A program made the translations under genes and the position numbers. Below the pieces are notes generated by a model. That model made no database searches. It had not been told where the DNA came from and worked only from the letters and a program-made list of their open reading frames with translations. This document shows, piece by piece, positions 37,005 to 57,407 of a stretch of 64,000 nucleotides of DNA (its first letter is position 1; each line of letters opens with the position of its first letter). Source of the stretch: Nitzschia sp. pyKryTriq1 (lineage: Eukaryota; Bacillariophyta; Bacillariophyceae; Bacillariales; Bacillariaceae); the NCBI GenBank assembly GCA_956465555.1, contig OY101122.1:1499001-1563000 (forward strand). Reading direction: 5' to 3'.

Positions 37005-38404
37005 TTATGAACTCTTATCTTGGTCGTCCACGTCGTCTTGCAACGACAGTGCCGCAGCTTTTGCAGCGCCGGACATATTGAAAGAAGTTTGACTGAGTTC
37101 CCGCTGCACTCTTTTGAGATTGCGGGCGGCGTCCGCAATGGTACTCTTGTTGGTCAGTTCCTTCTTCAGTTTATGCATTTGCATCTGGCGCGTCAAATAC
37201 TGAAGTGTATGAAAAGTCCGGGCTTGAATTCTCGTCAACTCTTCCATTTGCTCTTCCAAACAATCAAGTTGCTCCCGGATTTCCATGGGAGCCGATCCTT
37301 GAGAATCCGTTTCATCGTCAAAACCTTGCAGCATGGCCTTGTCTGTCTTGTGGAGCGAAGCAATGGCGTCACAGATGACAGCAATAATTAGGTTGACCAC
37401 GATGAATCCAGAAATGATCACAAAAGCAACAAAGGGCACCCACGCCCATGAGTAGGTCACCATGACTTCTCTGCAGATGGAAGCCCAGTTGTCCAGAGTC
37501 ATCATTTGAAAGAGTGTAAACAGTGTCCAACCCATCCCTCCAAAGTAATTGAATGCTGTTGGATTTTCAACCCCATGCAGGTTACTAAATAGCTGGGTAA
37601 ACATGACCGCAAAGATGTAGAAAATGAGTCCCAACATGAGACCGATGGCCGCCATTCGGGGGACCACACCAAATAGAGCTAAAAAGGAAGGGAACGAGAA
37701 AAACGATGGGTTAGCCAACAAGGCAATTATCTCGTGAAGTGAGTGAAGCCGGTGAGGTTTCACGCACCTAAGATAAGATTCTTCATAATCTTAATGCGAG
37801 TCACCAGCCGCAACGCCCGGAAAATCCGAAAGGCTCGAATGATTTGAACGCTGGCGAAGGACCAGCTCGTAACGATGATGACCAAGTCAAAGACCAGCCA
37901 CCCATCAAGGAGTAGTCTCCATCCATGATAGACGAATTGGAGAAATAATTCCACAGTGAATATAATCAAAAAGGCCAAGTCAACTTGTTCAAATATATTG
38001 TCGAGTTTTGGATTGTCACGCACAAAGGAATAGGTCCCGATTCCCATCATTATGGCGTTGATGCTGATCAACAGTACGATGAATAACTGGACCTTTGCGT
38101 TATTGACAAGCATCCCACAATTGAACCTGAGTTGATTGACCATGTCCGCAAACTCGCGGTAGGCCTTTCTTTCATGTCCAAACTGATCAGGAAAATCTCC
38201 GAAATCCCCGGCGGCGTCGCTATTTTCTGAATCATCGTCGTTCTCTTGCTTTTTATCTCCGGCCCCCGATAAATCTACTGAATTATCGCTTTTATTTCCC
38301 AAGTCCAGTAGTTTGGCCTCGGAAGGCTTCTTTTCCGGCCTGGCCATTGATAACTCGGCCGTCTCCACCCTCGTCCCTATAGGCCCATTTTCATTCAATA
38401 CCAT
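37005..38404 (-). CDS. Single-domain voltage-gated cation channel 1 (TLDNWAS filter)
   Basis: Exons 38404-37768 and 37678-37005 (intron 89 bases, GTGCGT..TTTTAG) give 436 residues with one six-segment unit, as in bacterial NaV and diatom EukCat channels. S1-S3 lie at about 105-180. S4 holds arginines at 190, 193, 196, 199 and 203 (RAFRIFRALRLVTR). The pore has the filter TLDNWAS at 273-279, close to bacterial TLESWAS, followed by S6 (GFIVVNLIIAVICDAI). An acidic N-terminus of about 85 residues and a C-terminal coiled-coil-like region (EQLDCLEEQMEELTRIQ) flank the core; the latter may hold four subunits together. It should conduct Na+ and/or Ca2+ on depolarisation. It converges with ATG5. Confidence 0.92.
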
Positions 38405-39290
38405 GTCGGACTTCTTATTGTACGCAGTCTACACGTAGCTCGGAACAATCAAATTTGGGTCCTTCGAGGCATTCACCGTGAAAGCTTCGTATCTGACACA
38501 ATAATGTGGGAGTTTTGAGACAGACGGAAAGTACGGGTACAACAAGAAGTCACTTGATATGTACGAGTGAAAAGTGAAAAGGACCTCAGTGAAATAAATT
38601 GGTAGAAGGAAAACGAGAAACAGAAGCACGAAGAACGGAAGTGTGTGTGCCAGTCGTCAAGCATACAGTACCAATACCTACTCGTACCGGTATGCAGTGC
38701 GCAGTAGTGCTGCCCTCTGTAGTCGCTGCGGGCGGCCCGGGGCTGCTATTGGAGCATCCGGGGAAATTTCGGCAACCATTTCATGGCGGGGGAGTTGGGT
38801 CATTTTATTGCTCCGACCACCGACGAGCGCAGCGAGGAGGGAGGCGCTGTACATCCGGGTTACTTTATGCCTATTTTCCGTGGTAATCGGGAGCGGTCGA
38901 CGAGCCATCAGCCATTCAGCCACGAATTGATTATCCTCAAAAACAAAACAAAACAAAAAACAAAAAATAGCATGTCACCATCTTCTCTGCCCTCACCATC
39001 AACACATGTTGTGTCTGATTCGCTGCAGTTGCACGAATCTCCGCATGTGGGAGAGGAAAGAGAGGATGGCGAGGTTAAAAACCCCCCGCCAACGACAGCC
39101 ACTACCCAAGCGCGGTCGGCATCTCACAGCTAAAGTCCCCTTGGGAAGGCAGTGAGTCCGACCACGTGTCTTGCATGACAGGGTATGAGGTAGTTGACGG
39201 CAAACCTTCAACACTCCAATGTCTGATCCTCATTCCAGCCTTTGGTAAGCAGTTCACTTTGTTTGCTACTATACTCTATACTCATTACAG
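38405..39290. other. Spacer with small GTAC patch
   Basis: A small GTAC-rich patch lies at about 38665-38695 and an A/C-rich run (AAACAAAAC units) at about 38940-38965. The frames here have no family likeness. Nothing that looks like a terminal inverted repeat of the neighbouring transposon-derived gene was found. Confidence 0.45.
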
Positions 39291-42200
39291 CTATGCGTAG
39301 TACTGACACTTCCTATCTCCTTTGGTCTTTGCTCCGTTGCACTCTGATTTCTTGCATTTCTTGCAGGTCCGTTGCTTCCTTTTTTTGGTGTCAGGCCCTC
39401 TGGCGTGTGATTGGTCGGGTCGTTGGTCGTGTGTCGGAAAGGAGATTGGGTTGATTGACACTCCGCCAACAAAATTATTCAACGGAGGCGCAAATGCTTT
39501 GGATGAAAATCCAGCCATTGCGGTCGGACGTGCTGGCAAAGAAATATCCCTTGGAACCATCACTCGCGACAGGCCCACTGGAGAAGGAATGATGACTCGT
39601 TTTGCTGGAGGTGGCCGATTGTTGTCTGCGACTCTCGTCCGCTTGGGCTTTTGCGTGACGGCCTGATCACTGTTGGTGTTGGGTAGGGAGATGGCAGCGG
39701 TGGCGCATGCAGTGGCCGGTATTGGTACGATGTCATGATCCTCATTAATTCTAGCAAGCTCTTTCAATGTTGTCAATTCCAGTTTCTTGGTGGTCTCGAT
39801 GATTCGTCCATTCCGTTCTCTCCTGCTCTGCTCCAAACGATTATAAACTGGGAGCTTGGGGAAAACTGTAATACCGTCCACCTTCTCCAAGATAGCCAAG
39901 CAGATCCTTTCGGCATCTGCGTTGCATTCCAAGGCAACCGATGGATACAATTTCGTATCCTTCGCCCAAGGCAATGTTGGGATAGCCAGTCCAGTTTTAT
40001 CAGCGAGGTATTGTAAGTCATTGGTCAGCTTCCATTTTTTAGGTGCCTTTGCACCGGCCTTCTTTGCTAGCTCCATCGCTTTCTCACACTCTCTTTCCAG
40101 CACCGTTGCCCGTTTAGCAATAGCTGCCGTAAGCTCAGCAGAGGCGATCGGTACAATGCCAAATTTCTCTTCCGTTCGTGCATAGCTACTTGAATTGACC
40201 CATCCTGGATATAGATTGACACCAAAGACCCTGTCGTAGAGGGTCTGGATAGCATCGGTTAGCCACGTATCGTAGTGGCCAACGTGCGGGAAGCCTGGGC
40301 GTTTCGCGCGGCTTATAGAAATATTCAGTCCATGCCGTATCTCAGCAAGGCTCACATCCGAGCTTTCAATCCCGATGGTGGCGGTTATTCCAAGCGCTGG
40401 TCGAATCTGTTTGTGAGTCAGTTCAACCGTTCCGGTCGAACGCAGGGACTGGATCAGTGGGAGCCCGAATTGATTGCGCTTGACTTCGCCAAAAGCATCC
40501 AGCTTGTAGTTATACATTGAATGCCCTGGTGGATCCGAGTAAAATCCTTGCCGGATTTCCTCCAGGATAGCCTCCGCCTTTTTCCAGGCGTCGTCGTTGA
40601 ATAGCGGCTTTTTTGATTTCAGGCAAATCTCATTCCCGAAACGTTCGAACACAGCACGCACCCGCCAGTAGAGTTTGCTCGGCGGGGGCATGTATCTTGG
40701 AATCATCTCAGTAAAAAAGTCGACATCGTAATACCGCCGCCTCTCTAGATCGAAATCGGAAAAGCCCGCCTCTTTGAGGACACCGCAAACGACGCTGTTC
40801 CACTCTTTGTCCCACACATATACAGCCTCCCGAAACGCGACAGAGTAAACTTTCTTGGCGGAATGATTTGCAGGGACGTACGGTCGATCCATCATATGCC
40901 ACCCATCCCCTAGAATAGCTGAGAACACGTCGATGATGGATTGTGGAGCATCTTTCAGGCCTTTCACTTTCACTTTCTTCGAAGTATTCGATGCCTCCTC
41001 TGCCCCGTCGTCCAGAGCGTTCTGCAACAGGTCTCGAATCATGGCGACTTCCTCGGGCGATATTGCTTCCAAGTCCTCTTCCTCTTCTCTATCATCATAT
41101 ATATCCTCGTCACCATCTGACGCCTCTTCAGAAGCTTTTAGTGGAGGTACTACTGGTGCTGTCGACACCCGCTCCTTGCTGACAGCGCACTCAACGAAAA
41201 GACTCTGACGATTTTCAGCGTGCTCTCGTAGCATACTTCCTGGCAAGACAATTTCGAAAGGAGCTTCGCCAAAGTCGGATAGTGTTGTGTTCTTCCGTCC
41301 CTTCCTGCCCTTCTTTACTGTTGGTACACTCAAAAGAGGAGCAACCACCTTGTCGATTCGGACGCAGCGGCGGTAGTCATTTTTGGAGGCTGCTGGCAAA
41401 ATCATCTCTCCTGGAAAGCGAATTCTCTCAGGAGCCTTGTCTAAAACCGTTCCTACTGCCCCAAGCGCGGATATTTGCCCAAGATTGCCCTTGTAGGATG
41501 AAATGTCTACTATTTTCCCAGGAACGGCGCTTATCTCTGGCAACGGAGCCGTCAGATCTGGAAGTTTCATCAGCTCTTCGTAGACAAGCAACGAATAGAC
41601 TGCATCTTTCAGTGCATACAGTTTTTGCTCGTCGCTTAGAATGCCGGCGAAGTTTGACGTCTGAAGAGTTTTGTCCAGAATTTCCCCAAAGAAGTGTGCC
41701 GAGTAATGCTCAAGGCCCGTACGCCCCGAACTGGTCACAACGCCACGGCGATTAGCAAGATATGCGACGTCTCCGATTCTTGTAGATAGATCTCCGCAAT
41801 TCAGAAAGTCCTCTCGTAACTTGTTTATGTCTCCTTTGATACTTCTCCCGCTGAAAACAAGCGACCTACTATTTAATAAATCCACCAATGACTTTGGAAG
41901 CGTCTTTTCGGATGGCTCGACTCGATATAAAATGGAGTGAACGACGTCAGGTGAAATTCGCATATCCCGATACGCAAGAGTAATTACCGAGACGGCCTTC
42001 TTCCCAATAATGAACCCACGTCCATTCCGAAGAATTGGCCATTCCAAGTCAAGGCCAATCCTTCGGAATCCTTCCTCTTGGCCTTCCATCAAATCACGTA
42101 TTAGTTGGAAAGTGTTCCCACACGTTCTTCTACCAAGACATTTGGAGTGTTTCAATATCTTGGCATCCACACTTCCTTCCTTTTCAACTACTGTGGTTTC

Positions 42201-43724
42201 TTCCAACATTTCAGCGGCTCCAGTTTCATTCGTTTTATTCAATGTTGCATCAGGTGTTGTGTCGATTGTTCTTGCGTACTCGTCTAAACGAGCTTGTTCC
42301 TTTCGAAGCGACGGAAATGTACTAAGCAAAAACTCCCTGTCCCGCGAGGGATTGTCAGTGTAGGCAAGTCGTGGCCCGGTTTGTCCATACGCTGCCATGG
42401 TGTCTTGCATACCAGTCAGGGGCCGTAAGATTTGATCGTGAGCATCGGTAGGAACTAAGAATTGTTGACGGATCTCGCCCATTTCATTCTTCACTGTCAC
42501 CAATCCTTTGAAAACTTGCAGTCCTTCGTATCTAGGAAGCAATTTTGACGTTTTGTACGAAGTGTCGATCTTCAGCACATCTAGCGGTATTTTCTTCATT
42601 TCTGAGTCGAGGAATGGCCTGATACTCTTGTGGAAGGAATTCAGCACTTTCGAAATATAACCTCCAGTAGGTACTCGCCCATCGTAGCCATCTTTGTCAG
42701 CAAAAGTAGAAAGAATACGAGGTTGGAAATTCAGCCCCTCAAGTTTACCCTGCTCGTACGCATCATCAATTTTCATCTTGTCGTATCGCTTCGAATGCAT
42801 CTCAAGAAGTATTCCTGACATGGTTTCTGGTCTGATGCCGTTTCTTCTTTTGGCGCGAAAGAGAGACAAGACAGTATGATCGAGAGCCAGCTTGCGAGTC
42901 AGAAAAGCAGGAAATTGTAATCCTTTTCCATATGCCATATTCTCCAATGTCGTAGGGTCCCAGCTACGAAAGCGGTAGTTGCAATCATGACAAATGCATC
43001 GGCGACCAAGGACATAGTAATTGGTCTCAAGTCCAATGACAAGTCGATGATTGTTGTTTTTGTCGAATCCATGGTTGCCAATCTTTTTCGGGTCGGCTGT
43101 CTTGCATTTGGGACAGGACGGGACAACACCGTACTGAACATCGGGTAGCCAAACTCGGATGTCTTTGTAGTATGCTTGATTTGATTTTGTAATATTTAGC
43201 TTGGCACAAAGATGGGAGGCCATACTAGCCAACAGCCTAAAATCCGACATCTGGAGTAGTCGCAGCAACCATGCGTCCTTGGCTTGCTTATCAGTTCGTT
43301 GCTTGTTGACTTCTTGGGCAAGTCTATTAGCCACAGCCTCCAAGAGCTGTTTCATAGGATGATCATTTTCTACTTCGTTGGGATTGGTAGAGCAATCGTC
43401 TGCTTTGTCAAGTGCCAATCCACAGTCTGCTGCCACATCGTCGATATCAACATCGTATGTTGCAAACACAACAGAATGCCCTTCTCCAATCACGGGGATT
43501 ACTTCCTCTGCAGTTGTAGATCCCAATGGTTGGGTCTCTTTTTCTGATGAGCTCGTAGTACTTGTACTTGCTGCTGCCGCCACCTTCGTCGACCCTGTCC
43601 GAAGGAAATTGGCCATGCTTGATCGCTGAACGCCATCCTGAGTTCGTGCAGTAAGTGCTGCATTTCGAATCTCAACACTGGTACGCCTGGCTCGTTGATG
43701 GATATCAGCACCTCTTTCACTCAT
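39291..43724 (-). CDS. Zinc-ribbon / DDE-like / 3'-5' exonuclease chimeric protein
   Basis: The start is the ATG at 43724 (MSERGADIHQ); the open frame reaches further only to a TTG. The product has 1477 residues in one exon. In order: a zinc ribbon (C204, C207, C245, C248) of the kind seen at the N-terminus of DDE transposases; an RNase-H-like region with D387 in VLKIDTSYK and D457 in AYTDNPSRDREFL, as in MULE-like transposases; a WRN/RNase D-like 3'-5' exonuclease with DEDDy residues D559 and E561 (GLDLEW), D632 (SIKGDINKL), Y703 and D707 (YALKDAVYSLLVYEEL); an acidic linker; a long uncharacterised region (YMPPPSKLYWRVRAVF); and a C-terminal Cys cluster (TCKKCKKSEC). It looks transposon-derived, with an apparently intact exonuclease centre. 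The third transposase acid is not evident. Confidence 0.75.
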   Translation of the reverse strand: MSERGADIHQRARRTSVEIRNAALTARTQDGVQRSSMANFLRTGSTKVAAAASTSTTSSSEKETQPLGSTTAEEVIPVIGEGHSVVFATYDVDIDDVAADCGLALDKADDCSTNPNEVENDHPMKQLLEAVANRLAQEVNKQRTDKQAKDAWLLRLLQMSDFRLLASMASHLCAKLNITKSNQAYYKDIRVWLPDVQYGVVPSCPKCKTADPKKIGNHGFDKNNNHRLVIGLETNYYVLGRRCICHDCNYRFRSWDPTTLENMAYGKGLQFPAFLTRKLALDHTVLSLFRAKRRNGIRPETMSGILLEMHSKRYDKMKIDDAYEQGKLEGLNFQPRILSTFADKDGYDGRVPTGGYISKVLNSFHKSIRPFLDSEMKKIPLDVLKIDTSYKTSKLLPRYEGLQVFKGLVTVKNEMGEIRQQFLVPTDAHDQILRPLTGMQDTMAAYGQTGPRLAYTDNPSRDREFLLSTFPSLRKEQARLDEYARTIDTTPDATLNKTNETGAAEMLEETTVVEKEGSVDAKILKHSKCLGRRTCGNTFQLIRDLMEGQEEGFRRIGLDLEWPILRNGRGFIIGKKAVSVITLAYRDMRISPDVVHSILYRVEPSEKTLPKSLVDLLNSRSLVFSGRSIKGDINKLREDFLNCGDLSTRIGDVAYLANRRGVVTSSGRTGLEHYSAHFFGEILDKTLQTSNFAGILSDEQKLYALKDAVYSLLVYEELMKLPDLTAPLPEISAVPGKIVDISSYKGNLGQISALGAVGTVLDKAPERIRFPGEMILPAASKNDYRRCVRIDKVVAPLLSVPTVKKGRKGRKNTTLSDFGEAPFEIVLPGSMLREHAENRQSLFVECAVSKERVSTAPVVPPLKASEEASDGDEDIYDDREEEEDLEAISPEEVAMIRDLLQNALDDGAEEASNTSKKVKVKGLKDAPQSIIDVFSAILGDGWHMMDRPYVPANHSAKKVYSVAFREAVYVWDKEWNSVVCGVLKEAGFSDFDLERRRYYDVDFFTEMIPRYMPPPSKLYWRVRAVFERFGNEICLKSKKPLFNDDAWKKAEAILEEIRQGFYSDPPGHSMYNYKLDAFGEVKRNQFGLPLIQSLRSTGTVELTHKQIRPALGITATIGIESSDVSLAEIRHGLNISISRAKRPGFPHVGHYDTWLTDAIQTLYDRVFGVNLYPGWVNSSSYARTEEKFGIVPIASAELTAAIAKRATVLERECEKAMELAKKAGAKAPKKWKLTNDLQYLADKTGLAIPTLPWAKDTKLYPSVALECNADAERICLAILEKVDGITVFPKLPVYNRLEQSRRERNGRIIETTKKLELTTLKELARINEDHDIVPIPATACATAAISLPNTNSDQAVTQKPKRTRVADNNRPPPAKRVIIPSPVGLSRVMVPRDISLPARPTAMAGFSSKAFAPPLNNFVGGVSINPISFPTHDQRPDQSHARGPDTKKRKQRTCKKCKKSECNGAKTKGDRKCQYYA

Positions 43725-44559
43725 GATAAGAATAGAGAATGATGATACAAGTAGTGCTACCGGTACAAGTATTGCTGAATGGGTTGTGTTGTGTTGTTTT
43801 GTTGGTGTGGACAATGTTGCTTAAAGTGCTTCTGAACGTGCTTCTTCGCGCAATGCGCAAAGAGCGATCGAATTATTTTGGCGCGCACCAAAAAGAAGCC
43901 TCCCAACGCACGCACCCCGTAATCTCGGGCCCCCTAATGGGCGAATCCATGAGTCAAAATGACGTCACTTCTACGACATCGAGAAGACAGAGATCTTTAG
44001 GAAGTGAGACGAGGCTTTTAATGAAATAGCTCGTTTCGGACATGCCTTTTAATGAAATATTTAAAGGGACTTTTGACCTTTTAATCATTTATTTAATGGA
44101 ATTTTGATTAAAAAGTCCCCCGCCATGTTGTGGTTGCCGAAATTTCTGAAACAAAAACAATCGCGCATTTTACCGCGCACATTGCAGCTACTGTACACAC
44201 GGTATCTGTAGGTCAAAACAAGGATACCGGTCAAAGATTTCTTCGTACAAGTACGAAAAAATTTTCGTACGAAAAATTCTTCGTTATGCCTGCCTGGTAC
44301 CTGGTACCGTACTGTGCCACGGGAGCAGCAAGCGCAGCAAGCACACAACATATAAAAAAAGGGCACAGTAAAATCAGATCAGATAGCGAGGGAAGAATTC
44401 GAAACCAGAAACAGGTACGAGATACAAGTACATACAGACACTCCTCAGGACAGAGGGCGTCATTCCCCGCAGTGGATACGAAGTCTTCGTCCTCGTCTGT
44501 GTCGACCTTCGAGTGGTGTTGAAGGACTACTGTTACCTTCAGATTGCTCTTACAAAACA
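43725..44559. repeat. Divergent spacer with inverted/direct repeats and GTAC patch
   Basis: Between two divergent genes. CTTTTAATGAAATA occurs twice (44015 and 44045). An imperfect inverted repeat has GGGACTTTT and TTAATCA (44066-44087) facing TGATTAAAAAGTCCC (44105-44119). GTAC and TACGAAAAATT-type sequence fills about 44220-44320. A TGACGTCA lies at 43960. The repeat group could be the remnant of a small non-autonomous DNA element. Confidence 0.5.
43960..43967. promoter_or_regulatory. CRE-like TGACGTCA palindrome
   Basis: A perfect TGACGTCA lies 235 bases upstream of the exonuclease-chimera start and about 590 bases upstream of channel 2, in their shared divergent spacer. A bZIP role is inferred from the motif. 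Confidence 0.35.
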
Positions 44560-45996
44560 ATGGAAGGCACACCGTCTTTTCAGAAGTCGGCATCCGAGAG
44601 AAGTTTGGCTTCGCTTGAAGTCTGCGATATCTTCCGTACTAGTGGCGATGCCTCGAGCGAAAATAATGAAATTGGCCGACAGACCCCAACGACGCCTACC
44701 TTGGTACCCACTCCTGCTCAACCACCACACGAACTAGAAGGTGGCGTGACTAATTCACCAAAACAAAAGACTACGGTGGAACATCCCGCAAAGCGGAATC
44801 AGCATTTACGGAAACCCAAAACGATGAGCAAACGTCTTGTTCATCAGGACTCATTTCAATCGCAAACATCAACGACCATGAACGACTCGTTTTTTCGAGA
44901 CGATTCTCTAGGCGAAAGTACCAACTCTCTTCTAGGTTCGAGTAGAAGAGAAAATCTCCACCGATTTCCAGCGCTGGAAGAAGTCAGTCACGAATTGACG
45001 GCGGATCCAACCAACGCTGCAGCCTCTAATAATAAGAATAATGATAATACCCTCACCACGGAGGCAAAAACGAAACGAAAGAAGGGGCCAAGTGACGAAT
45101 CATCTCTGGAAGGTCGTCACGTGCTACGCAGGATTCGAGTTGCCGCTGGTAAGGTTGTTGAGCATCCCTACTTTCAGTTATTCATCATAGCTTTGATCAT
45201 GATCAATGCAGCTATGATGGGCTTGGCCACCATGGATTTTGTTACAAACAACCCGGACGTTCTGAATGCTTTTGAAATCACCGACAAGGTTTTCTTGATT
45301 ATTTTCACGATCGAGCTTGCCCTGAATACCCTCTACCATGGCCTCCACATGTTTACTGATGGCTGGTTGTTCTTCGATGGTATCATCGTGATATCCTCTT
45401 GGGCATTCGTCCAGCTTCAAATTGTCAGGGCATTTCGAATCTTTAGAGCATTACGGCTAGTTTCGAGGCTCCCCGCGCTACGGCGATTGGTTCAGGCAAT
45501 CTCTATGGTATTGCCACGAATCGCTGCTATCAGCTGCTTACAGACACTCATCATGTACATCTACGCCGTACTTTGTACAACACTCTTTGGAGATCTTTCC
45601 GATACGGGGGTCTCAGATTTCGACTACTTTGGAACCCTGGATCGGTCGATATTTACCCTGTTCCAGATGATGACTCTTGACTGGAGTCAGGTCGCTCGGG
45701 AGACACAAGAAATCTATCCAAACTCGATTTATCTCTTCATTTCATTCATCATTTTAAGTGGGTTCATTGTGTACAACATGATTATTGGAGTCGTTTGCGA
45801 TTCTGTGTCCATGTTGGAGCAATTGAGAAAGTCCGTTGACGACCAGGAAGAAGAACCCGGGCAGGAATCTGTGGCTTGCGATGAGAAAGTTATTGCCAAG
45901 CAGATGAAGAAGCGCCTTGCGGATATGATAGAGGCGCAAAAGCAGCTACTGGCGACAGCCGAGGGCGTTGTCAGCGAATTTGAAAATCTGAGATAG
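44560..45996 (+). CDS. Single-domain voltage-gated cation channel 2 (short TLDWSQ filter)
   Basis: This single-exon 478-residue channel has one six-segment unit. A long Ser/Thr-rich N-terminus (about 1-190) precedes S1 (PYFQLFIIALIMINAAMMG). S4 has arginines at 290, 293, 296, 299 and 303 (RAFRIFRALRLVSR). The filter is TLDWSQ at 372-377, one residue shorter than TLDNWAS of channel 1 when the flanking FTLFQMM and ARE segments are aligned. S6 reads SGFIVYNMIIGVVCDSV. A short acidic stretch and a coiled-coil-like tail (KQMKKRLADMIEAQKQLL) follow. The shortened filter suggests a different ion preference from channels 1 and 4; selectivity is not predictable here. It converges with channel 3, 294 bases away. 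Confidence 0.9.
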   Translation: MEGTPSFQKSASERSLASLEVCDIFRTSGDASSENNEIGRQTPTTPTLVPTPAQPPHELEGGVTNSPKQKTTVEHPAKRNQHLRKPKTMSKRLVHQDSFQSQTSTTMNDSFFRDDSLGESTNSLLGSSRRENLHRFPALEEVSHELTADPTNAAASNNKNNDNTLTTEAKTKRKKGPSDESSLEGRHVLRRIRVAAGKVVEHPYFQLFIIALIMINAAMMGLATMDFVTNNPDVLNAFEITDKVFLIIFTIELALNTLYHGLHMFTDGWLFFDGIIVISSWAFVQLQIVRAFRIFRALRLVSRLPALRRLVQAISMVLPRIAAISCLQTLIMYIYAVLCTTLFGDLSDTGVSDFDYFGTLDRSIFTLFQMMTLDWSQVARETQEIYPNSIYLFISFIILSGFIVYNMIIGVVCDSVSMLEQLRKSVDDQEEEPGQESVACDEKVIAKQMKKRLADMIEAQKQLLATAEGVVSEFENLR

Positions 45997-46290
45997 CACC
46001 CGCCGTCCTACCCCCATGGACCAACCAGTGGCAAATGTTTCTTTCATCATCAATCACACACAGTCTCTCCAATTTTTTTTCGCAAGTTCTAACCTTGGTA
46101 CTAAACATGATTTTTCGATCTACGAGTGAGCAATCCAGGCGATTGTACTACATTATCCTTAGCACCCCGAAGTTCTCGGGGTAGAACCCACTACCTAGTA
46201 CTTGCTAGATCCGTTCAGTCCAAATTCTACATTGGGAAATCAGCCCAAACATAATGCATGCTTCGAGGTTTCGCAGGGTACTCTAGTAGA

Positions 46291-48147
46291 CTAGCTACCG
46301 GAGTTCGTCGTCGAGTTCGAGACATGACTGTCACGACTGTGCATACTACTCCGGCTGTGAAGGCTACTCCTGGAGGAATCCCTGGTTAGCACTGACACGC
46401 TGGGCTCACGAAGAGAGCTACTTGATAAATCTCCTTGAGACCCACCTTTTTTGAAGGAAAGTTGTGACAAATAGCCGCTTCTTCTGGATCCAGTAGAACT
46501 TCCACTTGCAGAGCCTCGTCGCCTTGCCTTCCTCCTGTCTGGCAGAATTCTTGAATGCCGTGAACTATTCAACGACGCGTTTTCCTCCGAAGCCTTGATG
46601 CTGGCTTTGAGAGTGAGCTCTTTCAATTTCCGCTCTTGCTCTCGTCTCCCCTTCTCTTGGATGTATGTCCGTTCTAATGATTCGAGTTGTCTCGTCGACT
46701 GCATATCTTTCTGATACGTCATGCGCCGATTCATTTCGATACGCAGCTCCGCTTCTCGATGTTGGGCCTTCATGCGCTCAGCCTCAAGATTCAAAAGTTC
46801 ACTTGCCATGAGCTCAATCAAGTTCTGAACATTCTCTTGCGTCCGCAGCATATCGCTTATATGGCATTGAAGGAGATCAATGCGCTCTTGCGCCTCTGCC
46901 AATTTGTCGGTAGGGTTGTTTGGCTCAAACCCATCGAGTTCGCGAACTGTCTTTTCTGTCACCGCAACAGCATCACAAACCACGGCAACAATCAAGTTGA
47001 ACACGATAAAGCCAGTGATCATGATAAAAGATCCGAAAGGGGCCCACGCCCAGGGCTCGAACGTCATGACCTCTCTCGCAATATCCCCCCACTCAAGAGT
47101 CATCATTTCCATACATGTGAATAGCGATGTGTCGAGTGTTGTAAAATAGGAATCCGACAAAGGAAGGTGGGAAAACAGCTCGGTGAAGAGAACTGAGAAG
47201 ATGTAGAAAATCAGCAGCAAGAGGGCTGCAATAGCATACATTCGAGGCATGACGGCTCCAATTGCAAGGACCAGGTCTCGTAATGGTTTGACTCTTGTGA
47301 TCAGACGGAATGCCCGGAAGATTCGGAAAGCTCGAACAATCTGAAGTGACTCAAATGACCACGACAAGATCACTATCAGCAGGTCAAATACAAGCCACCC
47401 GTCCCCAAACAACGTCACACCAAGATATATCAGCTGCATTAGACACTCAACCGAGAAAATAATCAAAAATCCGCGATCAACTTTATCAAAAAAAGCGTCC
47501 ACCTCTGGGTCCTCCAACACAAAGTCAAAAGTTGCCAGTCCCATCATGAGGGCATTCGCGATGATGAGAGCAATCATGATTATTTGCACATATTCATTGT
47601 TCACAAGCTTTCCACAAAACATCCTAAACTTCCATATTCGCGAGCCTGACTTCGCGGCATATTCCGAATCATCGGAGTATGAGTTCTCGTCTGAATCAGG
47701 ACCATTTTCTTCCGAAACCCGACCCTCACCCTCAGATATTGGGTCCTTCTTTCCATCATCTGACTGACCCAAAGATCCTTCTTTCGCGTAGTCAAATTCT
47801 ATCACTGATCCACTATCTGTCGACACTGAGCATGCCCTTATTAAAGGGGAACCCCCGTGCTGTGGGTGTTTTGAAGGAAGATGTGCTGGCGATTGCGGTA
47901 GAGGTTGTTGCGAGTCTTGCTGAGATGTTGTGTCTCCCCCACCTGTCAGTGGAACTTCAATCTCATCGTTGGACATTTTATCTGAGCCGGAACTGTGGTC
48001 AGCCTCGTCCTCTCTTGTGTCTGGTGTTGCCGCGTCTGATATCGTGTCATGCTTCGGACATTGAGCAAGTTCTTCCGAGGGTGTGGTTCCACTACCGCTA
48101 GCAGAACTTCTGTCCTCGATCGGGTTAATTACACCTGCGGATGGCAT
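46291..48147 (-). CDS. Single-domain voltage-gated cation channel 3 (short TLEWGD filter)
   Basis: The 618-residue single-exon channel has an acidic, disordered N-terminus (about 1-180), S1 from about 188 (VQIIMIALIIANALMMG), S4 arginines at 272, 275, 278, 281 and 285 (RAFRIFRAFRLITR), and the filter TLEWGD at 350-355. As in channel 2 the filter lacks one residue relative to TLxxWAx. S6 is GFIVFNLIVAVVCDAV. The cytosolic tail is the longest of the four: a coiled coil (about 425-525, with LDLLQCHISDML-type and EAELRIEMNRRM-type heptads) and then a basic, Ser-rich segment to the end (SSSSLREPSVSVLTRDSSRS) with many potential phosphorylation sites. The latter could tune gating or localisation. 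Confidence 0.9.
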   Translation of the reverse strand: MPSAGVINPIEDRSSASGSGTTPSEELAQCPKHDTISDAATPDTREDEADHSSGSDKMSNDEIEVPLTGGGDTTSQQDSQQPLPQSPAHLPSKHPQHGGSPLIRACSVSTDSGSVIEFDYAKEGSLGQSDDGKKDPISEGEGRVSEENGPDSDENSYSDDSEYAAKSGSRIWKFRMFCGKLVNNEYVQIIMIALIIANALMMGLATFDFVLEDPEVDAFFDKVDRGFLIIFSVECLMQLIYLGVTLFGDGWLVFDLLIVILSWSFESLQIVRAFRIFRAFRLITRVKPLRDLVLAIGAVMPRMYAIAALLLLIFYIFSVLFTELFSHLPLSDSYFTTLDTSLFTCMEMMTLEWGDIAREVMTFEPWAWAPFGSFIMITGFIVFNLIVAVVCDAVAVTEKTVRELDGFEPNNPTDKLAEAQERIDLLQCHISDMLRTQENVQNLIELMASELLNLEAERMKAQHREAELRIEMNRRMTYQKDMQSTRQLESLERTYIQEKGRREQERKLKELTLKASIKASEENASLNSSRHSRILPDRRKARRRGSASGSSTGSRRSGYLSQLSFKKGGSQGDLSSSSLREPSVSVLTRDSSRSSLHSRSSMHSRDSHVSNSTTNSGS

Positions 48148-50235: not shown

Positions 50236-52458
50236 ATGGCTGACGATGAACCCTTTGATTCCCTTGGCGGCAACGCCCCTGTGAGAAGGCCTTCTACGAC
50301 TCCCAATGCGCCTCCATCTTTTGCATTTGACCATGGCGGCAACATGTCAACACCGGGAGGTGCCCCTCCATCCTCTGCCTTTGGCAATCCTAATCCTGCG
50401 CCTGCCACCAAGGGCTTCGAAGACGAGGAGGACGAACTAGGTGCTATTCCAACTAGAGCTCAGGCCACGCAGCCGCCTTCGATCATGTCTACACAGCTGA
50501 ATGATCGCTGGAAACAATACGAGACGCAGATGGACGGTCATCGTACCGAATCTTCCCTAGAGAAGCAAGGCCAGGAGGAGACCTACTCGAACTACAGGGT
50601 CTCGGCTAGTGCTGTTCGTACCGAACTTTCTCCTCGTCAGCCTTACTCATTCCGAAAGAGCGACTCGTATGATACTGACCAGCTCATTCGAAAGTACGGT
50701 GGCATGGCCGGAGTGCCTCCTGCCATTAGCAGCTCTCGCCCTCCTGCTGCAAGTTTGAACACGATTCAACCAGCAGATGTACGGGACCAGGCACAAAAGA
50801 TGCTCGAGCTCGTGGATGATCACTTGAAGACTCCCCTGGACATTCGTCGCACTGAGAGTGGCGGCTTTCGGGCAGCCCCGCCTGTTCCGTCGAACGAAGA
50901 AGGCGAGCCCTACTCGTTCCGCCGCACTTCTTCCACAAATTCTGCATCCGGAAAGCGTGTTCCGGCTGCCTTGTCGGGCTTGAATTTCTCCAAGCCGGCC
51001 AACAACTGGAAAGAGCCGGGGCGATACTCGTTTTCGGATCCATCCTTTCGTGACGATGATCACATTTCGGATGACGAAGACGTTATCATTCGTTCCGATG
51101 GGCTCTTTGAGGATGAACCCGTGGTAGATGTGGTGGGTATGGAAAGCCGAGCTGCCGGTAGTCGTCCCTACAGTGATGAAAAGAAATTTGAAGGCGACTT
51201 TGACGGTGGCTCCAAAACCTGGAGCTCACGATACTCGGACAGCTCCCCTTATGTCTCTCAAAAACATGTTTTGGATCAGTGGGACAGGGAGTTTGGACAA
51301 GAGCAGGGTCGAAAAAGTGCTCGCAACATGTTTATGAGTACTGCCAGCAATATTCGCAGTTCGGCCAGCAACGCCTTTTCATCCGCCGCCGGCCAAAAAC
51401 AAAAGGTATTTGGATCAGGAGGATTCAGCTTCCGTGCCAATCATGTCTTTGGACACCACAAGGCTGCTTCAGAACAACCTGAGGTCAATCTCCGCAGTGT
51501 GTGGAGAGAAGTCGATGAAGATGCTCCGGTCGGTCCTCCTCCTGTACACAAGACGTGGCAAGAGGTTATGTTGAACAAGAGAAAGCGTCGCCGCATTCTA
51601 GGCATTCTTGTGATCCTCATTGTTGGTGCCATTGCTGCTTCTTCTGCTGTGACGGCTGTCAAGAACCGCCAAGCTAGCGCTTCCTTGTTTGCCGGGTCAG
51701 ATATTGGACAATCAGTCACGTTCCACGTGACTTCCGACTCGCCCTACGACAGTGCCGCCGAGGAACGAATGGTCAAAGATCTGGCCAACATCCCTTTGGA
51801 TTCGGAATTTGTGGTGCATCTTGGAAACATTCAAGATTCTACCGTCTCCTTCTGTTCCAAGACTCGTTACAGCGATGTAGCCTCTATTCTCGTGAAGTCG
51901 CCTGTGCCGCTCTTCATTGTTCCTGGAGCAGAAGATTGGACCAAGTGCCCGGACCCAAACACTTCGTTTGAACACTGGCTGGCAGCCTTCTTTGACTTTG
52001 ACCTAAAATTCAAGCATTCCATTCCTGTCAAACGTGACGACAACAGCCCAGAAGCCTTTTCATTCCTATACAAGGGAGTTTTGTTCGTTGGAATGCACCT
52101 TGTTAGCGGACCCCTAATGGATGACGATGCATGGGTGGAACGCCAGAAAGAAATGCTCAGGTGGTACTATGGAATGGCCAATATTAACAAGGGAAACTTT
52201 AGAAGTATTGTCTTGCTTGGAAATGCCAGACCAAGCGCCCAGCAGACTCTCTTTTTCGATGCCCTTTTCAGCAACCTGAAGGAGCACCACGCTCCCATCG
52301 TTTACATTCACGCCAACGAAAAGGGTGAAGAAGTCATTCAGTACAATCCCTTCGAAGCTCATAAAGAAATCAAGGTCATCGGAGTGCAAAACGGAAGTGC
52401 CCACCCACCTCTAAAGGTCACGGTCGGATTTGGAGAACGACCATTCATGGTTGGATAA
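50236..52458 (+). CDS. Single-pass membrane protein with degenerate calcineurin-like phosphoesterase domain
   Basis: The 740-residue frame has a disordered N-terminal half with three YSF repeats (QPYSFRKSD, EPYSFRRTS, GRYSFSDPS), a basic KRKRRR stop-transfer signal and one membrane helix (about 452-475, ILGILVILIVGAIAASSAV), so the C-terminal half should be luminal or extracellular (type II). That half (about 485-740) follows the calcineurin-like metallophosphoesterase layout, but metal-binding motifs are changed: DSPYDS where DxH is expected, VHLGNIQD for GDxxD, VPGAEDW for GNHE, and VLLGNARP and VYIHANEK near the histidine motifs. It is probably a pseudo-phosphatase with a binding role. Its family in diatoms is not known to me. 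Confidence 0.75.
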   Translation: MADDEPFDSLGGNAPVRRPSTTPNAPPSFAFDHGGNMSTPGGAPPSSAFGNPNPAPATKGFEDEEDELGAIPTRAQATQPPSIMSTQLNDRWKQYETQMDGHRTESSLEKQGQEETYSNYRVSASAVRTELSPRQPYSFRKSDSYDTDQLIRKYGGMAGVPPAISSSRPPAASLNTIQPADVRDQAQKMLELVDDHLKTPLDIRRTESGGFRAAPPVPSNEEGEPYSFRRTSSTNSASGKRVPAALSGLNFSKPANNWKEPGRYSFSDPSFRDDDHISDDEDVIIRSDGLFEDEPVVDVVGMESRAAGSRPYSDEKKFEGDFDGGSKTWSSRYSDSSPYVSQKHVLDQWDREFGQEQGRKSARNMFMSTASNIRSSASNAFSSAAGQKQKVFGSGGFSFRANHVFGHHKAASEQPEVNLRSVWREVDEDAPVGPPPVHKTWQEVMLNKRKRRRILGILVILIVGAIAASSAVTAVKNRQASASLFAGSDIGQSVTFHVTSDSPYDSAAEERMVKDLANIPLDSEFVVHLGNIQDSTVSFCSKTRYSDVASILVKSPVPLFIVPGAEDWTKCPDPNTSFEHWLAAFFDFDLKFKHSIPVKRDDNSPEAFSFLYKGVLFVGMHLVSGPLMDDDAWVERQKEMLRWYYGMANINKGNFRSIVLLGNARPSAQQTLFFDALFSNLKEHHAPIVYIHANEKGEEVIQYNPFEAHKEIKVIGVQNGSAHPPLKVTVGFGERPFMVG

Positions 52459-52533
52459 ACGACAGAAGAAATCGTCGAATTTGCTGGGTGCCCTTTTGCT
52501 TTTGTCACACTAGAGATCACTGATTATATATAG

Positions 52534-55211
52534 TTATACCTCTACTTTATTGATAGGTTCGTATCCGTCCCGCTTGTCCTCTGTTTCTTCTCCATCATCC
52601 TTCTCTTTAGATTCATCCTTCGTCACCCCTCCGTCGGTAGTATCTTGTTGTTCCTCGAATGCTTCCACCAACCCGGCGTTTTCTTTCAGCAATTTCATAT
52701 CTTGTGTACTCGAGACCTGTGCTTGGCAACGCTTGGCCATTTCCGCGGAAGCTTCGGCATCAAAGGCGCGTTCCGAAGAAGCACATGTTGCCGGAATGGG
52801 TAGATACGTACGAGCAAGCTTCCATACGGTTGGAAACTCTTCATGGCGTTCCTTCCACCAAGGTAACGGGTCTTCGAAATCTTTGGTACCGTCCTCATGC
52901 TCAGTATACATCTTCATACCTTCAGCAGCCTTGTAAGCAGTCAATTCTACCTGGCACTCTTCTTTGGCCTTAAGAGTCTCGGGATCAGTAGCGCTAGGGC
53001 GCTTGTTGGATTTTGGTGCGGCGGCGGGGGATAGTCGTTCAGAGAAGAGGCGGTTATGACCTCGTTTGGTACCTGGTACTCGGCTTGACGCTAAAGCCCG
53101 GAGTTCAGAAGAAGGAGCAGCCGTCTTTTGTTTTTTCGTTCGCGTTTTCTCAGCCGGGTCTTCGCCCTCGTTCGCTGCGGCATCAGTAGCCTGTAACTCG
53201 GTTTCCTCCATTTTCAGCAAAATCATTTGTTCCAAAACTGCATCAAAAACTACATCTCTAGATGCGGTGGTCGATTCGAGGAGGGAGAGTGATTTGAATC
53301 GAGGGTCCAGCGCATGCGCAATCCAAACTATTTGTGGTAATCCGTGGAATGGGTCGCTGGGAAACTCTTTTCCAAAGCGCTCTTCCCAAGTTGACAACAT
53401 TTTTTTCATGCAAGTCTTGAGCTTTCCTTGGTAGGCATCAGGATTAAGATCTTCGCCGACTACTTGAAGGATCAGGGGCACAAGCCCTATTGTGACAAAC
53501 CTTTGTTTTTGGAGAAGCTGGGAAGCAATGCTGAACGGCTGCCACGCTTCATGAAGCTTTTCCAATACATCCCAATCCTGCTTTGACAGTATCTCGACAT
53601 CCTCCAATCGTGAATCGAGCGCGAGAAACTCGAGGGCTTTACGCAAGTACAGGAGTCGTCCAAGCATCTCATTTGTAGACCACCAGCTGTTTGGTAGACT
53701 ATCCAAAAGAAGTGGGAGCTGACTTTGACCCGCCGGGAAGAAGGTTCTAAGCTCTTGCTGTGCTTTGAGCAGAAACTCGCTCGTAGCGGCAGATGAACAG
53801 ACTGCCTCTACGAGCTTTCTGGCTTTGCTGACCAAATCCTTGGTATTTGGGCCCAAAGCTACATATACAACCTCTGCTATCCGATTCAACTCGAAATCAA
53901 CTCCCTGGAAAAGTAGGGGTCCTCCGGCACCATCGTACGTTTCCGAGTCCTGGCAATTGCTCACCGTGCCTCGTACCTGCTTGTCCCTCGCTACACCAAC
54001 AGATTCCCAAAGGGCATCGGCTGGTTCTCCCTGGGCCACCGTTTTGTCGAAGTCACAGGCTATCACACAATTATGTAGCTTGAAATCGTCATCGATCCAA
54101 TGCACGCGGTCAACTTGGTAGGAGCAGAGGTTGTACGCCGTCCAGATTTCATGTACATGAATCAGCGATTGGTTTGCGAGCATTTCTTTCAGTTTGTGGC
54201 GCATGGCAAAGACAAGGTAGGAAATGTACTGTTCCACTGCGTCCTTTGTAAAGACGCTGACATGCCGGGGGCTACTGACAAAAGCCGCTGTCATCTTCCG
54301 AAAAGAGTCATCTTCCACTACATCGAGGGGCTGATCAGTTTCGAGGATCCACTGGGTGATGGCTTTGAGCTGTGACGATCGATTGACTTCTTTTTTTCCC
54401 TTCGTCTTGGACGTGTAGTATGTCTTTGCGCAAGTTCCTGGGGGGCTCAAGACGGGACCATCCTTCAACTTTTGCTGATTCATGATCTTGAAAATATCTT
54501 TATGCTGAATCTGTAAATGCCGCTTGAGTGGCGTCGGAGATCGATCAACTTTGCTCAATTTCACAATTTTTCCACACAAGTTACAATACGCGAGGGGCTG
54601 CTCAACCTCGGAAGCAAAATCATCCATGTTCCAAGTGTGGTACAACCTCCACCAGATTGTTTTCTTGGTGACCTGAGGAGCGCATACTTTGTTTGCTTCG
54701 AGGAGATCAGCGACGGTCGAGTGAGCTTTCAGCAAAGTCGGCCAGTCCAGATCGGCCATTGACTGAGGAGAGTCCGAATCAGCCGATATTACTCCTGGCG
54801 TAGCGACACTTGATCCAGGTCCCTGCTCACCGTGTTTCGCTTTCTTTGCCGGACGTCCATCCTCCTCCAAGAACAGCCCAAAGTTATTCGGGCTTTCGCC
54901 TGGGAACAAGCAGTTTTGACAAATATGGATGGATTCCGGCTTTTCGATCTGACCCGCCGGTGCTTTGGTGGCATCAATCGCAGCACACGGTGGATGAAGA
55001 GCTTTATCGCACCGGTTGCATGTGAACGATGCAGCTATTTGTGCCCAAGGCTGAAGACTTCCGAGCAGAAAACGTTTTACGATCTGAGTGGTGCACGTAA
55101 TACTGTACGAGTAGAGGCGATGCTAGAAATTTGTCTTTTGGCGTCTTACCATTTATCAGCCCCAGAAGCACAAACGAGACCTGCGGCTGCTGGTTGCGAT
55201 TCGGAGCTCAT
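52534..55211 (-). CDS. hAT-transposase-derived protein with PHD-like and BED fingers
   Basis: The long frame (down to 52534) opens at TTG, but the sense continues upstream. ATG at 55211 begins MSSESQPAAAG, exon 1 ends at 55150 before GTAAGA, and the frame-compatible acceptor GGAAG gives exon 2 from 55057; total 861 residues. Residues 34-70 form the second half of a PHD-like finger (CNRC, HPPC, CQNC). A BED finger follows (C179, C182, H201, H206). The middle matches the hAT RNase-H region, and the C-terminus (about 760-805) is the hAT dimerisation segment (LPIPATCASSERAF). The expected first Asp (DLWTS) reads HEIWTA and the second (TDN) reads VSNCQD, so catalysis is probably lost. The acceptor AAG is less certain than the rest. 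Confidence 0.8.
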
Positions 55212-55718
55212 CTTTCCCTTGGACTTCTCTCTAATGCTAGCCAGCTAAATAATCTCTAAAATTGAGGGAAGATTTGTTCTTTTGGTATCTTATTGAGTAC
55301 ACCTGGTATATCTGCTCGGTCGTTGAGACAGCAGACCGATCCTGTTGGTGCTTTTTTGCATACCAAAAATACCGGTACGTATGGACTCGTATGCAACCCC
55401 AACCGGATGCTGGCGGATGCTGGCTACCAGCTACCGGTATGTTGGTTTGCTGTCGGTCGTCGCCGCGTTCGGTCCTGCTCGGTCCTTTTGCAGTCGAAGA
55501 AGTCATTTATTCAATGTACGATTGCATGATTTTTTCTGCAACTAGACTTCGAGTTGAGAGTCTACAAATAATAGTATATCGACAAATGGAAAGGAAACAA
55601 GACACTAAGAATGGTATTTGTATGCAAATTGTTACAATATATGTGCACGTGTTTTTTAACAAGCCAGAACTCTTCCACGTTTTGCGCTTTCTCTATTGCC
55701 CCCAACCCGCCTCTATGA
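55212..55718. repeat. Spacer with small GTAC/TACCGGTA patch
   Basis: A GTAC/ACCGGTA patch with CTACCAGCTACCGGTATG lies at about 55365-55445. Frames across it are open by composition only. No gene is called. Confidence 0.45.
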
Positions 55719-57407
55719 TCATGTTGGGGGTGGCAGTTGCGGGAGTGGAGGATCGGTTTCTCTCGACTGCAACGTTCTGTCGGATGGATCTCCTGTAGGG
55801 CTAATCACATTATTTCCATCAGATACTCCATTGGCTACCAAGGTACTCAGCGGTGCCTGTGACTCCTCCCGCATCGCGTTATCATTCAAGCGTGACATGA
55901 CTCGTTCAATTTGGTCTTCGGTAAGACCAATGTCTCGCCAGAAACCAGCTGTGGATGGCCCTCGATCACTATCGAATCCAAACTTTTTACGAGGAAATTG
56001 CGTAGCAAGGTCTGATTGCTTATCTGCCAACTCGACCTGTTGCCGATTTGTATTTTGGGTAACAGGTGTTGAATCACCAGGTTGTTGGTGTACTTTGCTT
56101 CCAAAGAATGTGCTGTTGAGTTCATCCCTGAGTGATTGTGTTGTTCTTATAATCTTTTCCTCGTTTGCTCGGGACGAAGCGCTATCCCCAGAGCCCGGAA
56201 GTCCTATACTGATTTGTTGTTTTTGTACCTGCAGCCCTTCTAGCACCGTAATTTGAGCTTGCATCATCAGTTGCATTGAACCCGCGAGCTCTTCCAGCCG
56301 ATCTTCTACCTTGAGAGCCTCGCGAACTGAAGTTGCCGCAGAAATATCGTCCTGAATGTACTTGACCACCGACTGTTGATGGACAGAAGTGACTGCATCG
56401 CAGACGACAGCAATTACCAAATTCAAAAAGAAGAAGCTCGAAACAACAACAAATGCTACGAATGGCGCCCAAGCCCACGGATACTCCTCCATGATCTCCT
56501 TGCAGATTTCAGCCCAGCCATCCAATGTCATAATTTGAAAGAGAGTGAATAGACTGATATCAATGCGGGAAAAATAATCTTCTGTAGTGATTCCATCGTC
56601 GTAAGTACTCTTGAATAGATCGGTGAAAAGAATGGAGAAGATCAAAAAGAGGATTGCCAACAAGAAGAAGATGGCAAACATCTTCGGGATCACAAGCAAA
56701 AGGGCAACCACCAGCTGCTTCAAATCTTTGACCCAAGTTGCAAGACGCAGAGTTCTCACCACACGGAACGTCCTCATGACCAATAGATTGGGCATAATCC
56801 AACCCAGGCCGACTATGACCATGTCAAAAACGAGCCATCCGTTGGCGAAAAAATTGATTCCGTTGGCAGCAAACTGAAGGAACAGTTCAGCAGACATGAT
56901 GTACACAAAAATCTCTTTCATGAGATCAAAGTAGTTCTTCGTCGTACGGCTTTCAGTGACAAAGTCTGCAGTTGCTACAGCGGCTAGAAGGCAGTTCAAA
57001 AGAATCAATACAATGGACACCCGCTTAAACGACCTTGATTTCACAACATGTTCTGCCCAGGCCACTGAGCAACTGAAGCAATTCAGAGTTGGAAATTTGG
57101 TAGCCTTTCCCCAAACATTAACGGATCGACCATCACCGAATGTTGTGAAGGTATCTTGCGATTCGAAACTAACATGGCTCGACTGGCTGTTTGCATCGGC
57201 ATCCTCCGCGTACTTTGCATAAGCGGCAAACGCAGCGTCCTCGCTTTGGTCTCCAGTGGAATCACCCGAAATATTAGAAAGTGCCGTTTGCAGGCCTGGG
57301 AACAACGGGATATTCGATGGAGGACCCAACAACCCTTTCGCTTTGTCAGACGATTTCAAAGCGCTCCGTCTGGGGCCCGCCATCGCCTTTTTCGTATCCG
57401 GATGCAT
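55719..57407 (-). CDS. Single-domain voltage-gated cation channel 4 (TLDGWAE filter)
   Basis: The 562-residue single-exon channel has S1 at about 128-150 (VSIVLILLNCLLAAVATADF), S4 arginines at 212, 215, 218 and 221 (RTFRVVRTLRLATW), with Trp at 225 where the other three channels have a fifth Arg, and the filter TLDGWAE at 294-300, the longer class. S6 reads SSFFFLNLVIAVVCDAV. A coiled-coil-like segment (VEDRLEELAGSMQLMM) and a Thr/Pro/Gln-rich tail to 562 follow. It differs most from the other three in S1-S4 and should be the most distant paralogue. An in-frame Met at residue 9 is an alternative start. Confidence 0.9.
   Translation of the reverse strand: MHPDTKKAMAGPRRSALKSSDKAKGLLGPPSNIPLFPGLQTALSNISGDSTGDQSEDAAFAAYAKYAEDADANSQSSHVSFESQDTFTTFGDGRSVNVWGKATKFPTLNCFSCSVAWAEHVVKSRSFKRVSIVLILLNCLLAAVATADFVTESRTTKNYFDLMKEIFVYIMSAELFLQFAANGINFFANGWLVFDMVIVGLGWIMPNLLVMRTFRVVRTLRLATWVKDLKQLVVALLLVIPKMFAIFFLLAILFLIFSILFTDLFKSTYDDGITTEDYFSRIDISLFTLFQIMTLDGWAEICKEIMEEYPWAWAPFVAFVVVSSFFFLNLVIAVVCDAVTSVHQQSVVKYIQDDISAATSVREALKVEDRLEELAGSMQLMMQAQITVLEGLQVQKQQISIGLPGSGDSASSRANEEKIIRTTQSLRDELNSTFFGSKVHQQPGDSTPVTQNTNRQQVELADKQSDLATQFPRKKFGFDSDRGPSTAGFWRDIGLTEDQIERVMSRLNDNAMREESQAPLSTLVANGVSDGNNVISPTGDPSDRTLQSRETDPPLPQLPPPT

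Follow-up and report, generated by a model that had tools for sequence, protein, structure and literature searches.

Four single-domain voltage-gated channel genes, very probably of the EukCatA type and of old local origin, clustered in a Nitzschia genome

Why do four genes for single-domain voltage-gated cation channels lie within 20.4 kb of the genome of the diatom Nitzschia sp. pyKryTriq1, and does their proximity serve a purpose? A preliminary description had placed these genes, here called W1-W4, in a 64-kb window (the whole stretch of DNA analysed, to which all coordinates refer), and each is found at the coordinates and on the strand given there. It is highly probable, judging from the sequence, that they encode four EukCatA-type diatom voltage-gated Na+/Ca2+ channels, which arose by old local duplication and never dispersed.

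W1, on the minus strand, is a 436 aa protein obtained by joining two ORFs via a GT...AG intron. Exon 1 (37768..38404) contains the start codon, the N-terminal tail, S1-S4 and the S4-S5 linker; exon 2 (37005..37678) contains S5, the filter TLDNWAS, S6 and the C-terminal tail. The 89-nt intron between them (37679..37767, minus strand, GTGCGT...TTTTTAG) is predicted from sequence, and two Pfam/BLAST half-matches abut across it. W2 (44560..45996, plus strand, 478 aa, filter TLDWSQ), W3 (46291..48147, minus strand, 618 aa, filter TLEWGD) and W4 (55719..57407, minus strand, 562 aa, filter TLDGWAE) are each a single open frame; the residue after the acidic position is absent from W2 and W3. Each of the four proteins has one match to Pfam Ion_trans (PF00520), with E from 2.5e-34 to 2.7e-39.

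The anatomy is that of EukCat-like single-domain channels, as had been proposed for this locus: one S1-S6 unit per protein, S4 arginines, an acidic filter and homology to bacterial Nav. The S4 ladder is R..R..R..R in all four, so that the four conserved S4 positive residues of EukCatA are present, and the TL(D/E) filter and the CD(A/S)(V/I) end of S6 are as first described. Core identities are 37-55%. Searches of PDB sequences show W2, W3 and W4 to be homologous to bacterial Nav (phmmer of W3 to 5hvx, NavMs, E 5.7e-34). The six-segment helices were checked for W3, whose AlphaFold model has a pLDDT of 90.7 over aa 167-455; the 50 best PDB matches listed in a fold search with this model are NavMs, NavAb/CavAb and NaChBac entries. 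In such channels, four subunits would assemble into a tetramer; depolarisation would move S4 and open the S6 gate, and Na+/Ca2+ would enter, depolarising the cell or raising Ca2+.

The tails outside the core had been called unrelated, and Smith-Waterman scores against shuffles agree with this (z from -1.3 to 2.4 in 12 comparisons); some BLASTP alignments extend tens of residues beyond the core, e.g. W1 30-378 with W3 121-451. A candidate coiled coil is present in each tail, weak for W3 and W4; the best heptad moment was matched by 10, 22, 48 and 84 of 500 shuffles for W1, W2, W3 and W4, respectively. The best heptad stretch of W1 lies about 60 residues past S6, and the W3 model has a confident 43-residue helix after S6.

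Searches of the genome (40.65 Mb) with each of the four proteins gave only the other three as good matches; the remaining matches had E of 0.985, 0.668 and 0.139, and one query had none. The preliminary description had allowed for closer kin elsewhere in the genome, and BLAST-type searches with each protein found none. A Nav/Cav-type filter, T.(D/E).W, occurs in 0 of the 27 other Ion_trans matches of the assembly. These two results together suggest that W1-W4 are, within the limits of these searches, the entire Nav/Cav-type channel set of the genome. A four-repeat match on contig C14, considered as a four-domain Cav, was dropped, its translation being without the T.(D/E).W filter. A profile of the four cores searched with hmmsearch against the ORFs of 18 loci matched L009 (E 1.8e-12), L020 (1.5e-6) and L019 (4.2e-4); the pore motif of L009 is TPC-like (VNN) and that of L020 is TPCL-like (VND). 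L009 and the two weaker matches are superfamily kin of W1-W4. In the viral_contigs search, 27 stretches matched a pattern and none encoded a relative.

The preliminary description had cautioned against an assembly artefact, and no break is seen: the window has 0 N bases and W1-W4 are on one contig. Were four loci scattered at random over 40.65 Mb, they would all fall within 20.4 kb with a probability of ~5e-10; the co-location is therefore not due to chance, but paralogues need not sit randomly. Since the four are also each other's only close relatives found, and no point was found in its favour, the reading of the cluster as an artefact or a chance co-location can be set aside as extremely improbable.

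In the tree of the cores, a 100/100 branch separates W1-W4 from 32 bacterial Nav proteins; the tree took in these 36 proteins, and interleaving other eukaryotic channels would give the same grouping. Four-fold sites differ by 64-90% among W1-W4, and NG86 dS was not computable; the synonymous sites are saturated, at about the level of unrelated codons. Together with the mutual genome matches, this bears out the claim of an old, diverged cluster rather than recent tandem copies. Recent, species-specific copies that diverged fast would fit the end branch of W4, the longest of the four at 2.18 changes per column; but the state of the four-fold sites and the absence of direct DNA repeats of at least 24 nt from the locus make such an origin very unlikely. 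Among the pairings of W1-W4, none of five constrained groupings was rejected (AU p 0.32-0.49). The order of duplication is thus not fixed, and W2 and W3 need not have lost the filter residue in one common event.

Old local duplication would explain how the cluster arose; the preliminary description had also put it forward for study as an excitability locus. W1 and W2 diverge, and their upstream region holds a 5.4-kb DNA transposon (38770..44139, minus strand) with inverted arms at 38763-38796 and 44113-44146, the outermost bases of which are flank, and with a 6-nt flanking duplication, AAATTT (38764-38769 and 44140-44145). No matching flank duplication was found at L124, the complete-looking short relative of the transposon with both ends seen. 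The transposon ORF (39291..43814, minus strand, 1507 aa) has DUF6729 and a 3'-5' exonuclease-like domain; fragments of it elsewhere in the genome are up to 99% identical, and the insertion is apparently recent. Without the transposon, about 0.78 kb would separate the divergent W1 and W2. W2 and W3 converge on a 294-bp spacer (45997..46290). A hAT-type transposase-like ORF (52534..54909, minus strand), with one other genome match at 33% identity, lies between W3 and W4. An unrelated ORF is found there too.

A need for co-regulation, through shared chromatin or a divergent W1-W2 promoter, might have kept such a cluster together. Old paralogues are still within 20 kb, W1/W2 and W2/W3 are closely spaced in the way just given, and a Kv pair of similar divergence (48% identity) is dispersed over two contigs, so that clustering of channel paralogues is not universal in this genome. 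Three other groups are nevertheless clustered likewise: a Kv-like trio (45-53%, 11.3 kb), a TPC-like pair (59%, 7.7 kb) and a CNG-like pair (85%, 18.8 kb). The upstream regions of W1-W4 have no word of 7 or 8 bases in common and share two 6-base words, a number reached by 88 of 100 shuffles; the transposon upstream of W1 and W2 and the two ORFs between W3 and W4 also speak against a selected arrangement. The idea of a special excitability locus therefore does not stand up well, and a selected one is unlikely. In a limited check of titles and abstract beginnings in the open-licence literature searched, no description of an EukCat gene cluster was met.

Three filter types occur among the old paralogues: TLDNW in W1, TLDGW in W4, and TLDW/TLEW, one residue short, in W2/W3. 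The shorter filters of W2 and W3, like the divergent arrangement of W1 and W2, were absent from the preliminary description. Under the 'beacon' rule (PMC10120453, used here in part), selectivity depends on which residue follows the acidic ring; this is one author's classification, and its wording is inconsistent for the gap case. It has also been cautioned that selectivity is not to be deduced from acidic residues alone (PMC8002053, likewise used in part). The published filters compared were TLDAWAD (PMC8002053) and the residue-lacking form (PMC10120453). By the beacon rule, W4, with Gly after the acidic ring, would tend to Ca2+; W1, with Asn and an Asp ring, would resemble the Odontella channel (TLDAWAD) in being non-selective and permeable to Na+; W2 and W3, without this residue, would be non-selective, as is the Phaeodactylum channel. 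The three types are thus predicted to differ in selectivity, and most likely one excitable current has been divided among the duplicates by selectivity type.

A different use of unlike filters would be a four-domain channel in pieces, with W1-W4 joining in a single heterotetramer, obligate or facultative, as CatSper1-4 do; the filters would then surround one asymmetric pore, and clustering would keep the set together. Exactly four members were found, at one locus and with four unlike tails, and native Odontella channels may be heteromeric, as three transcripts exist (Yates et al., PMC8002053); but OsEUKCATA1 alone gives currents in HEK293 (PMC8002053), P. tricornutum has three EukCatAs, not four (PMC9516774), and neither the upstream regions, which give no sign of co-regulation, nor the clustering of other channel paralogues sets these genes apart. 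Such an assembly is improbable. So, too, with little in the way of probability left to it, is a heteromeric excitability channel in which the four subunits, two without the filter residue, would form one asymmetric pore independent of animal Nav/Cav and CatSper, in a genome where no four-domain Cav was found.

Paralogues of one origin with three filter types are a natural series on which the beacon rule for Na+/Ca2+ selectivity can be tested, and the diverged pores are useful for the study of ion choice. If the searches are right, this 20-kb stretch contains the diatom's whole Nav/Cav-type channel set, and its small size would make it convenient to strip one cell of every such channel and ask what purpose excitability serves in diatoms.

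Like W1-W4, CatSper1-4 are four distinct single-domain proteins that differ in their filters; for W1-W4, heteromeric assembly is hypothetical. Part of this CatSper background is given in the portion of PMC10120453 consulted. No CatSper chain is among the best 60 PDB matches listed for each of W2, W3 and W4 or the best 50 fold matches listed for W3. Four-domain Cav/Nav channels differ from W1-W4, which have one repeat per protein and are separate genes on both strands. EukCatB of haptophytes are likewise single-domain eukaryotic relatives; their C-terminal EF-hand (PMC8002053, in part) has no match in W2-W4 (E <= 0.01) or in W1 (E <= 10). Bacterial Nav (NavMs, NavAb, NaChBac, CavMr) resemble W1-W4 in sequence and W3 in predicted fold, and the W4 filter TLDGW resembles TLEGWVD of Ca2+-selective CavMr (PMC8002053, in part). 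Unlike them, W1-W4 have long N- and C-terminal tails and a VCDAV-type S6 end, the Cys of which is in 0 of 32 aligned bacterial rows; the filter residue absent from W2/W3 is kept in all 79 bacterial relatives examined.

The host agrees with the diatom origin of EukCatA: a light-harvesting protein at L034 has Fcpb7 (7vd6) and FCP 5 (8iwh), which we take to be diatom structures, as best matches and is a diatom-type fucoxanthin-chlorophyll protein. Of the diatom genomes examined, a single one lacks EukCatA (PMC11085791); its filter forms and C-terminal coiled coil have been described (PMC8002053, in part). The portions of the EukCatA descriptions consulted do not contain the TLDGWAE form of W4, with Gly after the acidic position. 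In Seminavis robusta the family is reported to have expanded by dispersed duplicates (PMC7335047, in part), whereas W1-W4 are all within 20 kb. Host, anatomy and published filters point to membership of the EukCatA clade: like PtEUKCATA1 and OsEUKCATA1, W1-W4 combine a diatom host with one six-segment unit, S4 charges, an acidic filter and Nav-like homology, and both published EukCatA filter types, TLDxW and the residue-lacking form, occur among them. W1-W4 are very probably further members of the known EukCatA-type channels, and the cluster itself is not extraordinary.

Four single-domain voltage-gated cation channel genes, W1–W4, are clustered in the window, which lies on contig C8 (1499001–1563000) of the 40.65 Mb, 20-contig genome assembly. 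The positions proposed for them in the preliminary description were confirmed by ORFs and Ion_trans (Pfam) matches. W2 (44560–45996, plus strand, 478 aa), W3 (48147–46291, minus strand, 618 aa) and W4 (57407–55719, minus strand, 562 aa) are single open frames. W1 (38404–37005, minus strand) comprises two ORFs joined by an inferred 89-nt GT–AG intron (37767–37679, minus strand), which accounts for the frame change between them; the spliced protein has 436 aa. Each protein contains one Ion_trans stretch (E-values of 2.7e-39, 1.2e-35, 2.5e-34 and 1.9e-34 for W1 to W4). An alignment of the four bore out the S4 arginine ladder, TL(D/E) filter and CD(A/S)(V/I) end of S6 described earlier: S4 reads R..R..R..R throughout, the filters are TLDNWAS (W1), TLD-WSQ (W2), TLE-WGD (W3) and TLDGWAE (W4), and the S6 ends are CDAI, CDSV, CDAV and CDAV, respectively. 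The N- and C-terminal tails, held in the same description to be unrelated, indeed scored no better than shuffles (z −1.3 to 2.4, 12 comparisons); BLASTP alignments of some pairs extend some tens of residues beyond the S1–S6 core.

W1 and W2 are arranged head to head, whereas W2 and W3 converge across a gap of 294 bp, with their tails facing each other. W1 and W2 are separated by a DUF6729/exonuclease-like DNA transposon with 34-nt inverted arms (88% complementarity) and an uninterrupted ORF (39291–43814) carrying DUF6729 and an exonuclease-like domain. AAATTT flanks the element on both sides, so its ends were placed at 38770 and 44139; other copies start at or near the same base. It has many short, near-identical partial relatives elsewhere in the genome, with fragments up to 99% (protein) and 100% (DNA) identical, and its insertion therefore looks recent. 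With the transposon subtracted, about 0.78 kb separates the start codons of W1 and W2 (779 bp with these ends, 781 bp with ends taken one base further in), so late padding accounts for some of the 20-kb spread. The interval between W3 and W4 holds an ORF with no Pfam match (50236–52458) and a hAT-type ORF (52534–54909) with one relative in the genome (33% identity). The gene of the autophagy protein ATG5 (35810–36871, three Pfam domains) is directly beside W1, and a CDPK-like gene (12582–14393), about 23 kb from the channels, encodes a protein kinase with an EF-hand pair, the EF-hand match being under the Pfam cut-off.

Searches of the whole assembly with each channel (for W1, its core) gave no matches beyond the cluster except three rows (E 0.985, 0.668 and 0.139), each from a different search. 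PF00520 has 32 matches in the genome, five in the cluster (W1 counted twice) and 27 elsewhere, all of which were translated (23 + 4). The pattern T.(D/E).W, with the residue before Trp optional, was found in 0 of the 23 translations, and the remaining four, inspected by eye, carry TVGYG or TCGYG pores. The other matches appear by eye to be Kv-like, TPC-like or TRP/PKD/CNG-like; some, such as a pair on contig C9, end before the filter and were assigned by resemblance. A TPC-like ORF, expected superfamily kin, is also matched by a profile built from the four cores (E 1.8e-12). Within the assembly as given and the limits of the search, which works exon by exon and scores the best candidates only, W1–W4 would be the genome's only Nav/Cav-type channels.

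In an IQ-TREE tree with 32 bacterial relatives (the best 80 of 248 found were fetched, 79 used with one omitted by choice, and 32 left after redundancy reduction), a branch with 100/100 support sets W1–W4 apart from the rest; the W4 branch is long (2.18). Within the four, none of the constrained groupings W2+W3, W1+W3, W1+W2, W1+W2+W3 and W1+W4 was rejected, each being less than 0.6 log units worse (AU p 0.32–0.49). Core identity is 37–55%, 64–90% of four-fold degenerate sites differ and NG86 dS was not computable, so the duplication is old in synonymous terms, in keeping with the old, diverged cluster first proposed. The cluster most likely arose through local duplication long ago, its membership being unusually complete.

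Nine channel matches of the same genome, picked by eye, served as a clustering control. On C4, a Kv-like trio with 45–53% identity fits into 11.3 kb; on C3, a TPC-like pair with 59% identity (L020 and L021, adjoining matches at C3:2443170–2450888 with a VND pore motif) fits into 7.7 kb; and on C9, a CNG-like pair with 85% identity fits into 18.8 kb. These groups indicate that nearness of old channel paralogues is not unusual in this genome, yet it is not universal, since a Kv pair with 48% identity is split over C9 and C1. The 360-bp stretches upstream of the four W genes share no 7- or 8-mers and two 6-mers (as many in 88 of 100 shuffles), and this word comparison gives no evidence of co-regulation. 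The LTG pores of the C4 trio resemble those of an unusual four-repeat channel on C14 (L026:1749–5897), whose four Ion_trans repeats all lie in a single 1382-aa open frame, Kv-like without TVGYG, with pore stretches LFGEF, LSGEA, LTGDY and LGGEW. Paired gene matches occur at similar offsets on C1 (~4.28–4.57 Mb) and C3 (~3.14–3.42 Mb); the two stretches sampled show 97.7 and 98.0% identity, and these regions are either haplotypes left unmerged or the result of a large duplication of recent date.

An AlphaFold model of W3 residues 167–455 (pLDDT 90.7, pTM 0.66) has the channel helices and a long helix past S6; all of its 50 best listed PDB fold matches belong to NavMs, NavAb/CavAb and NaChBac. 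In PDB sequence searches, bacterial Nav channels were the best matches of W3, while multi-repeat Nav or Cav3 chains, matched in several stretches, were top for W2 and W4, with bacterial Nav near. Each of W1–W4 most likely forms a tetramer, which depolarisation would most likely open; a CatSper-like heteromer of the four is an unsupported alternative. In 79 of 79 bacterial relatives, one residue stands between the acidic position and Trp; the W2 and W3 filters have none. Spafford (PMC10120453) sorts channels according to this residue, the 'beacon': Gly is reported as Ca2+-selective, a small neutral residue as Na+-permeable (non-selective with an Asp ring, e.g. OsEUKCATA1 of Odontella sinensis) and an absent beacon as non-selective (e.g. 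PtEukCatA1 of Phaeodactylum tricornutum). The rule is not fully consistent, as the gap case has three wordings: the abstract speaks of sodium channels, the text calls one-domain channels of this kind non-selective, and the legend of Figure 7 has 'more calcium selective'. Following the text, W4 is predicted to be Ca2+-leaning and W1, W2 and W3 non-selective. The experimental value of the four lies in their three filter types.

The chlorophyll-binding family PF00504 is matched 72 times in the host genome. Nine of these loci were translated, two of them (L030 and L032) in an unrelated frame, and two proteins were compared with the PDB: L034 matched Fcpb7 (7vd6, 1.7e-83) and FCP 5 of 8iwh (8.9e-82), and L028, a more distant member, best matched multi-repeat LHCI chains. 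Both 7vd6 and 8iwh are diatom complexes. One other Ion_trans locus, on C7, has the pore motif VNN, and two on C3 have VND; VNN is described for diatom TPC1, and VND for a TPC-like group found mainly in pennates and also in the centric C. tenuissimus (PMC11085791). The same source describes four-domain Cav channels as almost missing from pennates, with S. robusta as an exception. We infer that the host is probably a pennate diatom.

Judged by sequence, W1–W4 would be new members of a known family, EukCatA, whose channels are likewise diatom, single-domain and Nav-like (PMC8002053; PMC11085791). EukCatB was ruled out by the lack of any EF-hand match in the Pfam searches of the four. Both published EukCatA filter types are present here within a single genome, a hint that they split before the species did, unless loss recurred. 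Three EukCatAs are reported from P. tricornutum (PMC9516774) and three from O. sinensis (PMC8002053). In Seminavis, the family reportedly expanded through dispersed duplicates (PMC7335047), whereas here the complete set lies in one cluster, a contrast worth recording.
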